From positions 1-44,555 of the forward strand of contig JAFXQR010000105.1 of assembly GCA_017526985.1 (NCBI GenBank): 44,555 nucleotides of DNA. The letters run 5' to 3'. The DNA is from Lachnospiraceae bacterium. GTDB lineage: Bacteria; Bacillota; Clostridia; Lachnospirales; Lachnospiraceae. This document shows positions 38,134 through 43,396 of this stretch, one piece after another (the stretch's first letter is position 1; every line of letters starts with the position of its first letter). The notes beneath the pieces were generated by a model. That model had not been told where the DNA came from. It searched no databases and saw nothing but the letters and a program-made list of their open reading frames with translations. The translations under genes were made by a program, and so were the position numbers.

Positions 38134-38222
38134 GGTACACAAAATACGGCTTTTCTCACTTTATGTCGTGTTAAATGTGGGCCGAGCGGAAGATAATAGT
38201 CAACGAAAGGAGGAAAGAAATA

Positions 38223-38711
38223 GTGGATCAGGCTAAGATAGGTTCTTTTTTAAGGGAGCTCAGAAAAGAAAAAAAACTGACGCAGGAACAACTTGCAGAA
38301 CACTTTGGTGTTGCTGCACGGACGGTATCCAGATGGGAAAACGGCAATAATATGCCCGACCTGTCAATTTTGGTAGAACTAGCAGACTATTACAATGTAG
38401 ATATCCGTGAGCTCATTTGCGGAGAAAGGAAAAGTGAGAAAATGAATGAGGATATGAAAGAAACGTTGACTATGGTAGCAGATTATGCTGAAAAGCAGAA
38501 AAAGCATGCAATAATCAGAGCAGCAATACTGTTTGGCCTGGAAATGATCTGCTGCGGGTATACATTAGGTGCGGCAACTTTGGTGCTGAAGAGCAACGGA
38601 GAAATAAGTTCGACATTCGCAATAGTACCTATGTTGATCACTTTTTGTTTTTCAATCATGCTGGTTATCAATGCCAAGGATTATATCAGCAAACTTCCGA
38701 AGAAAGAATAA
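38223..38711 (+). CDS. XRE-family transcriptional regulator with two membrane segments
   Basis: 162 residues. HTH_3 domain about 4-62: LRELRKEKKLTQEQLAEHFGVAARTVSRWENG, then LADYYNVDIRELI. A linker (about 65-100) is followed by two hydrophobic segments (IIRAAILFGLEMICCGYTLGAATLVL and IVPMLITFCFSIMLVI), so the repressor is probably membrane-tethered. GTG at 38223 is chosen because AAAGGAGG lies 9 bases before it; a longer frame from 38175 would read through that site. Such small XRE-plus-membrane proteins are common in Clostridia. Confidence 0.85.
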   Translation: MDQAKIGSFLRELRKEKKLTQEQLAEHFGVAARTVSRWENGNNMPDLSILVELADYYNVDIRELICGERKSEKMNEDMKETLTMVADYAEKQKKHAIIRAAILFGLEMICCGYTLGAATLVLKSNGEISSTFAIVPMLITFCFSIMLVINAKDYISKLPKKE

Positions 38712-38713
38712 CT

Positions 38714-39145
38714 ATGAGAAATTTGGCAATGAACAGTGCATTTGAAGTTGTAAACAGTGCTCCCGGCTCAAGCGAGATTGAAATAGAGGAGTTAGTCCGC
38801 TATGCTCAAATAAATATTCCTATGGAATATCTGTCTATTATCAGAAAGGAAACTGAGCTTGAAATAAGTGTAGCCAAAATAAAGCTCCTGCGCTTATGGG
38901 GCGCTAAAGGATGCATTGAGATGAATGAAGCATATCATATTCAGCAATATATACCGAATTCTCTGGCAATCGGTGATGATGAATGTTGTAATGTGCTTCT
39001 GTATGCAGAGGGAGAAAAGGGATTCGGATTATATATAGTTTCATTAAGTGATCTGGAAGAGAATGCGATGGTAAATATTGCTGATTCGCTTAAAACATTT
39101 TTAGTAGATGGGATTGGATTGAATGTCTTTAATAGTTATTTTTAG
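38714..39145 (+). CDS. SUKH (SMI1/KNR4-like) family protein
   Basis: 143 residues. The pattern IEELVRYAQINIPMEYLSIIRK..., then LRLWGAKGCIEMNEAYHIQQYIP and LAIGDDECCNVLLYAEGEKGFGLYIVSLSDLEE fits the SUKH fold: an early helix pair, a W-G strand turn and a 'GD' turn. SUKH proteins are frequent immunity proteins of polymorphic toxins but also have other roles. It starts 2 bases after the XRE gene, so they are likely co-transcribed. No toxin gene is next to it. Confidence 0.75.
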   Translation: MRNLAMNSAFEVVNSAPGSSEIEIEELVRYAQINIPMEYLSIIRKETELEISVAKIKLLRLWGAKGCIEMNEAYHIQQYIPNSLAIGDDECCNVLLYAEGEKGFGLYIVSLSDLEENAMVNIADSLKTFLVDGIGLNVFNSYF

Positions 39146-39268: not shown

Positions 39269-39306
39269 AGTTCTAATCTTTAGATAGATTGGGACTTTTC
39301 TTTTTT
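39269..39306 (+). terminator. Terminator after the SUKH gene
   Basis: Eleven-bp stem AGTTCTAATCT / AGATTGGGACT (with G-T pairs), 6-base loop TTAGAT, then TTTTCTTTTTT. The gene-free stretch 39146-39268 before it holds nothing else I can name. Confidence 0.7.
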
Positions 39307-39344
39307 CTAGACATAACGCGGACCTCCGGCCGCAACCAAAAAAT

Positions 39345-39418
39345 ATAGAGCCAAAACCCTGTTGATTGTGCTATATTGCACATAGGCTAAAATACCAACA
39401 AGGAGGTTTTGGCTCTAT
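39345..39418 (+). promoter_or_regulatory. Long stem-loop sequestering ribosome site and start codon of the orphan gene
   Basis: Perfect 14-bp arms ATAGAGCCAAAACC (39345-39358) and GGTTTTGGCTCTAT (39405-39418). Pairing extends inward through CTGTTG (39359-39364) with CAAC...GG (39396-39403), so the whole AGGAGG (39401-39406) and the A and T of the ATG are paired. An inner hairpin TGTGC/GCACA (39367-39371, 39378-39382) caps it. Confidence 0.75.
39366..39393 (+). promoter_or_regulatory. Possible promoter inside the stem-loop
   Basis: TTGTGC (39366-39371), 16-base spacer, TAAAAT (39388-39393). Transcripts begun here, near 39400, would lack the left arm and so leave the ribosome site free. Weak hexamers; inference. 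Confidence 0.3.
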
Positions 39419-40952
39419 GTGCAAAATGATAGACCAATACAGTGATAAAATCAAGGGTACATTTTCTTTTTTCGATCGCATGATCATTAACGGTTATCTA
39501 AACCCTTTAATGAATGAGCATTCTCGTCCCGGTGCTCTTGCACAGCTCGGGGTGCTTCACAAAAACTATAAGGACTATTTTATGCAGGTCACCAACTCTA
39601 TTATCAGGCAGATTGAAGATGGCGCCACCGAATTGGAACGTCCTGTCATTTATCTTTCATCGACAAAGCAGAAAAAAGAAGATGTTGCTAAAAGTATACT
39701 TGATTCTTCTCCCGTTGATGAAGGTCTTATCTGTGCTATAAAGATCCTGGAATCTTGCAAAACAGCCAAAGTGTATGGCAGCAATGAAGGAAAACTTGTC
39801 GTGAAATCAACTTTTACCAAGTGTCTTCATTACTACCTCTACTACCTCGATAAAGTATTCGGTTTCATGTTTGTTAAGATCCAAACGTGGTTTCCTTTTA
39901 ACATCCAGGTGTATATAAACGGACGCGAAATGATGAAATCCGTTTTTACAAGGAATCACATCACTTATCAGTGCTACGACAATTCTTTCACAGATCTCTC
40001 TGACATTGCTAAAGCTCAAAAGCTCGCCGATAAGTTTAATTCAGAAAAACTTTGTCGCCAGCTTGATAAGTTTGCAAAATCCATCAACCCTTTTCTTGCT
40101 ACTGTTCAAAAAACTTTCGGGCAGGGCTATAACTGGTGTGTGCATCAATGCGAGTTCGCAACCGATGTAATGTTTAAGGAACGGAAATTCCTCGAGGATA
40201 TTTATCCATCGCTGGTTGGTCACGCATTCTATGATTTCACAGTCACCGATGTCTTTACCTTTATGGGACGTAAACCGGACCCGCGGTTTCTGGGAGAATC
40301 TGTCTCCGACTATAAATCACGCCCCATAGGCTGTAGGGTAAAGTTCAAGTTAAACGCCAACAGTATCAAAATGTATGACAAATGCAGTGTACTCCGCATT
40401 GAAACCACGATCAATAATCCACGTGAATTCAAAGTATATGCTGATGTCCATCATCGTGGCGGAAAGATTTCAAAAGAATGGAAACCTATGGGCAAGTCTA
40501 TATCCAACCTTTACCGCTACGCTGAGGTATCTAAAACATGTAACGAACGTTTTCTTGATGCCATGACAGATATCGTTCCGGTTAAATCCACTTTGGATGA
40601 AATCAGTAAAATCTGCTCTGGTAAAACTATAGATGGATACCGAGTTACCGGCTTCAATGTATGGTCTCCTGATGTTGTAAGAATCATGGAAACGGTCTGC
40701 GATGGCAGATATTTCATCAATGGTTTTCGAAACAAGGATATCGGAAAGATTATATATCCGAATTTCGAATCAAATAGAAAACGCAGCGCCAAGACCAGCA
40801 GGTTATTGAAAAAACTCCGGCTACATGGACTCATCAAAAAAGTTCCGAAATCACGTCGATATCATGTTACATCAAAAGGGCATCGTACTATGGGAACGTT
40901 ACTTGAACTACATTCTCGCGACTATCCTACACTTGCTGCAAAACCGACATAA
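39417..40952 (+). CDS. Orphan 511-residue protein with C-terminal winged helix, possibly mobile-element encoded
   Basis: 511 residues. No named family recognised with certainty, but the block pattern recalls a widespread uncharacterised family: KCLHYYLYYLDKVFGFMFVKI with TWFPFNIQVYINGR, then AQKLADKF, CEFATDVMF, MGRKPDPRF, SIKMYDK, LRIETTINN, WKPMGKSI. The C-terminal 60 residues (SRLLKKLRLHGLIKKVPKSRRYHVTSKG) form a winged helix. A conserved acidic or Lys/Tyr-rich core (KMYDK, RIETT) could be catalytic, but no nuclease motif is proven. Start ATG 39417 with AGGAGG 10 bases before; both lie in a stem-loop. A terminator follows. Confidence 0.75.
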   Translation: MCKMIDQYSDKIKGTFSFFDRMIINGYLNPLMNEHSRPGALAQLGVLHKNYKDYFMQVTNSIIRQIEDGATELERPVIYLSSTKQKKEDVAKSILDSSPVDEGLICAIKILESCKTAKVYGSNEGKLVVKSTFTKCLHYYLYYLDKVFGFMFVKIQTWFPFNIQVYINGREMMKSVFTRNHITYQCYDNSFTDLSDIAKAQKLADKFNSEKLCRQLDKFAKSINPFLATVQKTFGQGYNWCVHQCEFATDVMFKERKFLEDIYPSLVGHAFYDFTVTDVFTFMGRKPDPRFLGESVSDYKSRPIGCRVKFKLNANSIKMYDKCSVLRIETTINNPREFKVYADVHHRGGKISKEWKPMGKSISNLYRYAEVSKTCNERFLDAMTDIVPVKSTLDEISKICSGKTIDGYRVTGFNVWSPDVVRIMETVCDGRYFINGFRNKDIGKIIYPNFESNRKRSAKTSRLLKKLRLHGLIKKVPKSRRYHVTSKGHRTMGTLLELHSRDYPTLAAKPT

Positions 40953-40982
40953 CAGCTCTGTCAATAAGAATACTCTTCCTGC

Positions 40983-41005
40983 AATCAAGCAACCCTTGAT
41001 TTTAT
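40983..41005 (+). terminator. Terminator after the orphan gene
   Basis: AATCAAG / CTTGATT stem (40983-40989, 40995-41001) with 5-base loop, followed by TTATT. The T run is short. Confidence 0.5.
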
Positions 41006-41225
41006 TCTGCTGTCAATGTACTGAAAATCTTTATATTTCTTGATGTTTTCTCAAGGAAATATCATAATATGCGTCGCAGATTCCGGACATAGATCAAGCG
41101 ATCCCCCTGCACAAAACCAATGTTGAGAGGCTGCGCAGAGATGACCTTCCCTTTAATTGGAAAAGAAAGTATGGGCTTTGTTTATATATAAAATGTGTCT
41201 AAGTGTGAATATATTCATAAAAACA

Positions 41226-41308: not shown

Positions 41309-43396
41309 ATGCCGATATCTGATAAAGACCTGGAATATATGAAGAAAATAGCTGTTTTTTACCGTGCTAACGGTTCTATTAAGAGGACAGCTGACGAATT
41401 CAAGATCAACCGCAATAAAGTCCGTAAGATCCTAGTCACAATGGGTGAGATAAAGTCTCCCATCGCTGATAATGTAAGAAAGCTCCGTGAGGAAGGACTA
41501 TCCATTCAAGAGATTGCAAAATATCTTAATGTCTCTGTAGCTACGGTATCAACTGCCCTTCCTTATGAGGATAAGGTGGATAATACGCTGGAGCCTACAG
41601 AACACGCGGTCAAGGTAAGGGAATATCGGGCATATGAGAAGAAACTCAAGATGCAGATGATTAAGCCTGCAAAAACGAAGGAAGATGAGCCTATGAAGGG
41701 AGAGACTATGGAAGATAAGAGTATGAAAAATATGACGATAAAAGAAGCGCAATCTGATAAAGAAACAAGCGTAAAAGAGTGGGAGAAAGACATCAAGATG
41801 TCCTATACGGAGGATTATACCAGACCTCCCAGAGTCACCTGGGAAGAAAGAGAAGAACAGTTGAAAGCTCTTTCCAAGGCATACGATAGGCATCCATCAA
41901 AGGAACTGGCATCCTGCATCCGACAAATGAGCCCGTTTCGCCCCGGTATAGATGCGAAAGAGAAGGAATTAAAGAAACTCTTGAATAAAAAGAAAAGAAC
42001 AGAGGAAGAATCTAAAAGGTTTATGGAGCTTGTCTACGAACTCGGGCTTTTCCCCGGTGCGTTAAATGACCGTGACAAAGATGCGTTAGAAAAAATTTCC
42101 GGTGATCGCTTACCTCCAGATCCACTGAATGTCGTAAGGCTTCATATGGAGCTTTATGATGAATACGAAGAGTGGTATGAGAAAGAGGATGGATATGTTG
42201 ATAAGGACGCTGAAGTATTCAAGAAATATGGAAAACTGCAGTATGGCAACCATATAAGCAGGGATATAGTCGTACCGTATGATATCCCCTTATATGCCCT
42301 TCATTATGTGATCCAGAGAGCCTTTGGATGGGAAAACTCACATCTGCATCAGTTTGAGCTGCCACCGGATGCCTTTAAAAAGGTGACTAAGAATAAAGCC
42401 GGATTATGGAGCAAAATGGTTGGTATCCTATTCCGTTCCCCTTATATGAACGAAGAAGACGAGTTCTGGTGTGATGACTACAATGGTGGCAGCTTCAAGA
42501 ACTGGCTCAGGAAGAAGTATACTGGACCTTATCTTTCTCAGTGCCAAGGCGAAGGTATCCTCTCCTGCATAAACAATATAAAGAGGATCGATATAAACGC
42601 TAAATATTATGTATTGTATAGCAATGCATATAACCATAAAACGAATAAATACGATGGGGAGGAATATGTATCCAGAATCTCACCGGTTTATGACAACGAA
42701 GGGAATAAGCGGCCGGAACCTACGCCTATATTCTCTGATGAAGCCCCTTATAGAGTCGAGATAATGGATTTTAAGGATGCTCCGGTAGAAGGACTTCGAA
42801 AACTGTTTGACCGGGATCCCATGTCTCTCCTTGAAAGGTTGCCCTTATATTCTGTACTTGCGGTAGGTAAATATACTCTTCCAAAGGACGCGCCAAAGGA
42901 AGAGAAGGCCTATATTAAGAAGCAAATAGCGAAATCGGGAGATGCGATCTATAAGGAGTTAAAGGAACACATAGATTATATTGTTAAGGAACAGATCAAT
43001 GCTCCTGAATACCAAGTCTATCCCCAACCGGTAACGGATACCCTGATCTACAGCTATGACTTTGGTGATAACTGGACGATTAGAATCACAGCAAGTGAAA
43101 ACTGCGAAGATTTAGTAGTATCTGAGCGGATTACCCAGACAGAGCTAGACAGGGCAAATGTGAAGTGCCGAGAGGTCTATCGTCCGGTTCTGATTGCCAA
43201 AGATGCTGAGATGCTGGTAGATGATGTTGGTGGTATCAGTGGCTTTGCTGAGTTCTTAGAGGAGATCAATCCCGAGTTAGATGGGTTATCTGCCCTGGAG
43301 AAGAAGGAAGCTAAGGAAAAGAAGAAGGAAAGCCTGACTTGGGCAAAGAGCCTTGGGTGGCATAGGGAGAATTTGTCGGATTTTAACCTAATCTGA
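41309..43396 (+). CDS. HTH domain fused to PRiA4_ORF3 (IS1096 TnpR-like) protein
   Basis: 695 residues. The N-terminal 90 residues hold two helix-turn-helix-like units (GSIKRTADEFKINRNKVRKI and GLSIQEIAKYLNVSVATVS). A charged coiled linker (about 95-240) follows. The C-terminal part (about 295-680) carries PRiA4_ORF3 motifs: YDIPLYALHYVIQRAFGW-NSHLHQFEL, YSYDFGDNWTIRI and DVGGISGFAEFLEE. This family was named from plasmid pRiA4b and the IS1096 passenger gene; its biochemical role is not settled. AAAGAGGGA precedes the ATG. The large linker splits the domain into two blocks, which is unusual. Confidence 0.85.
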   Translation: MPISDKDLEYMKKIAVFYRANGSIKRTADEFKINRNKVRKILVTMGEIKSPIADNVRKLREEGLSIQEIAKYLNVSVATVSTALPYEDKVDNTLEPTEHAVKVREYRAYEKKLKMQMIKPAKTKEDEPMKGETMEDKSMKNMTIKEAQSDKETSVKEWEKDIKMSYTEDYTRPPRVTWEEREEQLKALSKAYDRHPSKELASCIRQMSPFRPGIDAKEKELKKLLNKKKRTEEESKRFMELVYELGLFPGALNDRDKDALEKISGDRLPPDPLNVVRLHMELYDEYEEWYEKEDGYVDKDAEVFKKYGKLQYGNHISRDIVVPYDIPLYALHYVIQRAFGWENSHLHQFELPPDAFKKVTKNKAGLWSKMVGILFRSPYMNEEDEFWCDDYNGGSFKNWLRKKYTGPYLSQCQGEGILSCINNIKRIDINAKYYVLYSNAYNHKTNKYDGEEYVSRISPVYDNEGNKRPEPTPIFSDEAPYRVEIMDFKDAPVEGLRKLFDRDPMSLLERLPLYSVLAVGKYTLPKDAPKEEKAYIKKQIAKSGDAIYKELKEHIDYIVKEQINAPEYQVYPQPVTDTLIYSYDFGDNWTIRITASENCEDLVVSERITQTELDRANVKCREVYRPVLIAKDAEMLVDDVGGISGFAEFLEEINPELDGLSALEKKEAKEKKKESLTWAKSLGWHRENLSDFNLI

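Follow-up and report, generated by a model that had tools for sequence, protein, structure and literature searches.

Insertion sequences of the IS200/IS605 family have no terminal inverted repeats, and elements of the IS91/ISCR kind, which are moved by Y2 HUH enzymes, likewise have no inverted repeats and use a fixed tetranucleotide as target. In IS10, IS50 and IS200, read-through RNA folds into a hairpin that conceals the ribosome site. For IS200/IS605, a published account describes small hairpins near the ends and, beside the left end, a conserved tetranucleotide, with the enzyme binding the subterminal hairpins and the tetranucleotide setting the cut (PMC6006769). A further relevant comparison is the Rep_trans site, which two published sources describe as a tyrosine on a beta strand within RxYxK and a metal held by three carboxylates (PMC4797284, PMC6499999).

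Here we analysed a stretch of 44,555 nucleotides from a Lachnospiraceae bacterium (contig JAFXQR010000105.1), hereafter the window, in which an earlier note had singled out the protein encoded at 39417..40952 as a candidate new mobile-element protein. The family to which it belongs resembles IS200/IS605 in having no terminal inverted repeats, a left-end hairpin and a fixed short target word, and it resembles IS91/ISCR in combining the absence of inverted repeats with a fixed tetranucleotide target. Unlike IS200/IS605, it has an identical core word at both ends, its strong, G+C-rich hairpin is confined to the left end and, unlike the IS200/IS605 TnpA (Y1 HUH), the window protein has 511 aa and neither an HUH motif nor a Y1_Tnp match. 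Y1_Tnp (PF01797) was absent from the Pfam matches of 30 members at E<=0.1 and, in contrast to IS91/ISCR, no HUH transposase family was among those matches; judged by its sequence, the window protein is not a HUH enzyme. Literature searches found no description of this element family. We file it as an insertion sequence, a known kind of element, the transposase of which matches no Pfam or NCBIfam class and which may have an entry in ISfinder.

Copies, ends and unoccupied sites

The open reading frame at 39417..40952 (plus strand) is intact, with 511 codons counted from the ATG at 39417, and the earliest start given by the ORF listing is a TTG at 39366. Comparison with related copies indicates that it is the sole gene of an insertion sequence at 39312..41066 (plus strand, core word counted at both ends), that is, a 1751 bp unit plus one extra CATA, the ends of which we placed by resemblance to copies whose ends comparison had fixed. 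Directly to the right of the element, 41309-43396 encodes a protein of 695 aa that has an HTH at its N-terminus and also contains PRiA4_ORF3 (PF07929, E 9e-21). On the other side, 38175-39145 encodes a Cro/CI-type HTH regulator and then a protein with a weak SUKH-1 (SMI1_KNR4) match below cut-off, and a terminator-like hairpin (39269-39296, plus strand) lies directly left of the element.

The window's own genome holds one copy only. A profile search found 21 matches in Lachnospiraceae A4 (G628), nine of which are full-length open frames belonging to two subfamilies, type A and type B. The type A copies L009 and L019 are 99.5% identical over 1803 bp and L012 and L013 are 99.94% identical over 1798 bp, in both cases with unaligned flanks, and identity between the two pairs is ~77%; the five type B copies are 99.1-99.8% identical over ~1646 bp. 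In these near-identical copies the non-coding ends are conserved along with the gene, and their presence in unrelated flanks fixes the ends of the element. In the draft of this genome, runs of N interrupt two copies (the group of L046, L138, L005 and L017), and the sequenced stretches of L005 and L017 stop exactly at the right core of the element, as expected where a repeat breaks assembly.

The core word forms a direct repeat at the ends, with CATA in type A, the type of the window, and CCTAA in type B; flanking sequences diverge beyond it, and no terminal inverted repeats were seen at the ends of either type. In the window the left CATA, on the target side, is at 39312..39315, as placed from the type A left-end listing and multicopy boundaries, and the right CATA is at 41063..41066, as placed from the sequence and comparison with type A copies (both plus strand). 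A type A left end consists of CATA, then 2 nt, then the hairpin. CATA is found in 18 of 18 listed type A left ends, a count for which the search pattern already included CATA; the left word is independently visible at the boundaries of multicopy elements. Among the 14 listed type A right ends, which were located by searching for the core word, 13 read ATAnCATA and one, L015, reads ATTACATA; exact CATA is absent at the right ends of L016 and L046, neither of which is among these 14. Type B copies start with CCTAA-C-CCGGataaaCCGG and end with GTGCCTAA. A CCTAA-type left end is also present at L063, on plasmid pOLGA1 of Paraburkholderia phytofirmans, where the protein is annotated as an ArsR family regulator. 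Outside the core word the target preference is short: before CATA, targets prefer T-A-T at positions -5 to -3 (13, 14 and 11 of 18, respectively), so that the target and the right end have a short extended word in common.

Unoccupied relatives of the element sites read through with one core word, each subfamily providing one clear case. For type B, copy L133 sits ahead of a gene for a small protein, which from its look we take to be mobC-like, and in 8 of the 12 fetched relatives of its flanks the alignment runs through the joined site, with the element missing. Nearest among them is L162, with GGAGGA-TTAGA-GAAAATGG compared to GGAGGA-TTAGG-TAAAATGG in the joined L133 flanks, TTAGG being CCTAA on the opposite strand. 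The single word of type B rests on L162, because the word itself is less well matched in the other seven relatives; immediately upstream, L162 additionally carries a local insertion that is unrelated. For type A, the unoccupied L189 has ATCATAAATCCCGG, with a single CATA where the flanks meet, the joined L013 flanks read AACATAAATCCCGG, and the two are 65% identical overall. A right-flank DNA search of 60 genomes found no unoccupied relative of the window's own site, the matches in three other genomes being restricted to the distal part of the query. At G628:C6, a stretch 100% identical to the left flank of L019 was considered as a further unoccupied site and rejected, as it runs into the element.

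The profile search gave more than one match, which may be a fragment of a copy, in 14 of 26 genomes, all of which had been picked for holding a locus. Among 97 other relatives 2 match, one of them with a short relic, and in a phylum-wide sample 11 of 347 other genomes match, mostly with fragments. A scan of genome contigs found at least 58 loci, which is a lower bound because the finding of relatives needs exact peptide words; by record title they belong to Lachnospiraceae, other Clostridia, Chloroflexi, Acidobacteria, Planctomycetes, Verrucomicrobia, Bacteroidetes, Proteobacteria and others. Relatives were found in nine plasmid records and, as one partial match, in viral contigs; a search of phages gave no relative at E 1e-5. 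The protein tree has nine phylum labels among its 29 labelled rows, with Bacillota as one group and Planctomycetota and Acidobacteriota split (three changes each), a pattern that is compatible with transfer and is no proof of it. As judged from these matches, the element is patchily distributed and its copies are decaying.

We thus found the features of an insertion sequence, namely a discrete unit, near-identical copies at unrelated sites and known unoccupied sites, and comparison shows the element to be mobile, as a discrete unit of ~1.75 kb that inserts at a fixed short word. The idea of a mobile-element protein, put forward from the window alone, is therefore borne out by near-identical copies in unrelated flanks, fixed ends, unoccupied sites and a patchy, decaying distribution. 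The earlier note's statement that similar proteins occur in multiple copies across unrelated bacteria agrees with the 21 matches in one bacterium and the nine phylum labels in 29 tree rows. Of the checks proposed there, the copy count per genome gave one copy in the window's genome and 21 matches in Lachnospiraceae A4, and the comparison of occupied with empty sites gave one unoccupied case each for type A and type B. Between the two roles that had been suggested, a DNA mobiliser fits the evidence for mobility, and a self-spreading regulator found no support apart from the winged helix.

Hairpins at the element ends and over the gene start

The left-end hairpin of the window, GCGGAC-ctcc-GGCCGC with one mismatch and followed by AACCAAAA, lies at 39318..39333 (plus strand) and was recognized by its cross-phylum occurrence and covariation. 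In several phyla the hairpin begins 1-2 nt inside the left end, and 33 of the 41 scanned loci (L002 included) have a short, usually G+C-rich left-end hairpin before AACCAAAA or a variant of it; such a hairpin was not found in the other eight (L020, L021, L028, L031, L032, L034, L035 and L064). For the covariation analysis 26 of the 41 loci were kept and 15 were dropped by hand, a choice that favours pairing: L009, L010, L012, L015, L018 and L025 were dropped as near-duplicates and L002 because a different hairpin had the better score, even though the left end of L002 is the same as that of the window, and L047 and L133 were retained despite differing tails. In these 26 hand-picked loci, 13 distinct arm pairs gave 50 of 52 Watson-Crick cells versus a mean of 38.4 for shuffled arms, and 1 of 10000 arm shuffles was equally good. 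Individually, 20 of the 26 hairpins beat all 40 shuffles and L003, L036, L043, L049, L063 and L133 do not; taken by itself, the hairpin of the window has no unusual stability (equalled by 25 of 200 shuffles, z -1.3). Being upstream of the likely promoter, the left hairpin is outside the element's own mRNA, and the simplest reading is that it folds as DNA. On the minus strand it also reads as a terminator-like site.

At the right end, a weak A+T hairpin, ATATTTC-N16-GAAATAT, touches the core at 41033..41062 (plus strand). In a shuffle test of 10 right ends, the number of shuffles as good out of 500 was 2 for the window, 3 for L012, 20 for L008, 23 for L011, 55 for L003 and at least 92 for the remaining five; outside the window, most of these hairpins are weak and do not reach significance. 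For type B, a longer right hairpin can be read at greater distance from the end.

The start-masking hairpin occupies 39345..39418 (plus strand), with arms at 39345-39369 and 39394-39418, the downstream arm spanning the Shine-Dalgarno and the ATG. The predicted RNA fold of 39330-39430 has -33.2 kcal/mol (z -5.9) with 0 of 200 shuffles equally stable, which confirms the hairpin already noticed over the gene start, and the pairing of the start region with the upstream arm was also equalled by 0 of 200 shuffles. This pairing is reached at <=9/200 shuffles in 23 of 30 loci, which are related and hence not independent, and L036, L037, L040, L042, L063, L064 and L133 miss this threshold; in L002 the best upstream arm is the left-end stretch instead of the usual arm. 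Like the hairpins of IS10, IS50 and IS200, that of the window element is predicted to hide the ribosome site in read-through RNA, but in this family the arms vary in sequence between subfamilies and yet keep their pairing.

A likely extended -10 promoter, TGCTATATT, was read from the sequence at 39369..39377 (plus strand), and type A relatives have TGC-TATAAT or TGC-TACAAT at the equivalent position; a promoter consensus scan did not report this extended -10, and there is no -35 there. Since the upstream arm lies at or before this likely -10, the masking hairpin would form only in RNA started outside the element.

Conserved residues and motif likeness of the protein

The five dense motifs named in the earlier note, KCLHYYLYYLD, TWFPFN, CEFATD, KMYDK and RIETT, are all present in the transposase candidate (at residues 135, 157, 245, 318 and 327, respectively), and all fall within conserved blocks in an alignment of the window protein with 29 relatives, where mean column identity is 49% and many residues are invariant. 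The same note saw no known transposase motif, and indeed the window protein has no match above cut-off to any model of Pfam or NCBIfam (June 2026), including transposase families. Its description of the C-terminus as DNA-binding-like was right in that residues ~460-499, and these only, are winged-helix-like (Pfam, NCBIfam), but every HTH match is under the curated cut-off. When the 30 members were scanned singly, Pfam returned winged-helix families and scattered weak matches. In PHROGs the window protein has nothing at E<=0.1; among the 30 members, 11 match 'transcriptional regulator' families (best E 5.6e-5, positions in the proteins not given), 8 match an unnamed family (9e-4) and one matches a 'DNA helicase' family (0.003). 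For the window protein, a MarR protein at E 0.67 was the sole match of a PDB profile search, and PADLOC gave one weak match, CARF3--CARF_TM, at residues 416-493 (E 4e-4). Two plasmid relatives are annotated as 'ArsR family transcriptional regulator' and 'hypothetical protein'.

D20, E112, E246, K318, Y320, R327 and E329 are invariant in 33 of 33 sequences, and substitutions at other positions occur in L060 (E at K322) and L064 (T at D250). A conserved HxH pair is absent, His being present in at least half of the 33 sequences only at columns 138, 152, 269, 310 and 470. By eye, the order of motifs is like that of Rep_trans (PF02486: pT181-type Rep, MOBT relaxases) and Phage_CRI (PF05144: gpII-type), with an N-terminal acidic residue, an acidic residue, (R/K)xYxK and RxE in common and no HUH, and KxYxK is present in several gpII-type phage proteins. 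The spacing differs, however: RxE follows the Tyr by at most 9 residues in the window protein, whereas the metal-binding Glu follows it by 23-28 in two Rep_trans/Phage_CRI-type enzymes (PMC4797284, PMC6499999). Furthermore, Rep_trans and Phage_CRI proteins are replication initiators or relaxases, unlike the transposase candidate of the window.

PF02486 and PF05144 are missing from the Pfam matches of the 30 members, and full-length hhalign was negative (Rep_trans 0.17%, Phage_CRI 0.10%; alignments of 14 and 7 sequences), with a positive control in which Rep_trans and Phage_CRI detected each other at 78%. Sub-region hhalign against Rep_trans, for a stretch picked after the likeness had been seen, gave 2.3-9.0% probability over 10 columns; 0, 2, 0 and 0 of 60 column shuffles were equally good in the controls, and two printed alignments place KMYDK on RIYDK. 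When four motif blocks were scored together, 32 of 201 controls reached or exceeded the score of the window protein, which is not significant, and the best placement of the window protein does not use KMYDK; across 33 members, the number of the 201 controls doing as well was 0 to 83. Membership of Rep_trans or Phage_CRI is thus rejected by the profile comparison and the block test, and the likeness is by motif only. Because the full-profile match is negative and the block test is not significant, we put forward Tyr320 as the catalytic tyrosine as a hypothesis and not as a finding. Among the Rep_trans genes, three at G232:C1 (L070, L071 and L072) have identical scores and a spacing of exactly 7313 bp, resembling a tandem-repeated phage-sized unit.

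Proposed mechanism and alternatives

On balance we lean towards the view that the window protein serves as transposase for an autonomous insertion sequence with a single gene, which moves by single-strand tyrosine nicking at the core word. Under this hypothesis, the winged helix and the protein body would bind the end hairpins, and at each end one strand would be nicked immediately 3′ of the core word, Tyr320 within K318-x-Y320-x-K322 being the likeliest residue to do so, with a metal held by some of D20, E112, E246 and E329. The flanks would then be rejoined at one core word and the excised strand reinserted 3′ of another such core word. The start-masking hairpin would silence the gene in RNA arriving from neighbouring promoters, because its upstream arm is at or upstream of the likely -10 of the element. 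We infer single-strand transposition from the likeness of the ends to IS200/IS605, and the left hairpin, which covaries in several phyla and is upstream of the likely promoter, also points toward single-strand DNA. Points that speak against this view are the negative full-length profile comparison, the block test, the substitutions in L060 and L064, the right ends of L016 and L046 that do not have an exact CATA, and the weakness of most right-end hairpins. With less confidence, and tentatively, we suggest that the family may represent a new transposase class, namely a tyrosine nickase outside the HUH enzymes, whose metal site would be formed by carboxylates as in Rep_trans/gpII proteins and which would move single-stranded DNA and recognise both the G+C-rich hairpin on the left and the core word of its subfamily, in many phyla.

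The conserved acids and the repeated word can also be read as a hidden RNase H-like (DDE/DEDD) transposase that cuts both strands and for which the fixed word is a sequence-specific target duplication of 4-5 bp. Several acids are invariant (D20, E112, E246, E329) and a 4-5 bp direct repeat at the ends is formally a target duplication; we nevertheless consider this unlikely, as terminal inverted repeats were not seen, the word is non-palindromic and constant within a subfamily, the left-end hairpin covaries and no DDE/DEDD family was found in Pfam (30 members) or NCBIfam (window protein).

A core common to the target and the right end, the single core of unoccupied sites and the absence of inverted repeats would equally suit a site-specific double-strand recombinase, integrase-like or RNA-guided as in IS110/IS1111, acting through a double-stranded circle between core words, and one of the 30 members very weakly matches the phage-integrase central domain (E 0.084). 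This appears improbable to us, because no recombinase or IS110 family matches above cut-off in Pfam or NCBIfam, with DEDD_Tnp_IS110 and Transposase_20 absent from Pfam (30 members) and NCBIfam (window protein), and because the target preference beyond the core is short. Moreover, a circle-junction pattern had 3 matches in 14 genomes (L212, L213 and L214), and the one examined, L214, is an ordinary left end and no circle junction. Finally, an ordinary host winged-helix gene, a transcription regulator that was merely duplicated, would account for the weak winged-helix matches and the 'ArsR family transcriptional regulator' annotation of a plasmid relative, but is very hard to reconcile with near-identical copies in unrelated flanks, conserved non-coding ends, the existence of unoccupied sites and the scarcity of matches (2 of 97 other relatives; 11 of 347 other genomes in the phylum-wide sample).

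There are few classes of transposase, and annotation easily overlooks an insertion sequence family that spans phyla and has no catalogued catalytic core. If the reading as a new class is true, such a family has spread under names such as 'hypothetical protein' and 'ArsR family regulator'. Its defined ends, core words and hairpins make the family directly testable, and core words that differ between subfamilies (CATA, CCTAA) invite the question by what means the protein reads the word and whether this choice can be changed. If single-strand nicking by a tyrosine is the true reading, transposition would gain a link to Rep_trans/gpII-type replication initiators, such as already exists for HUH enzymes.
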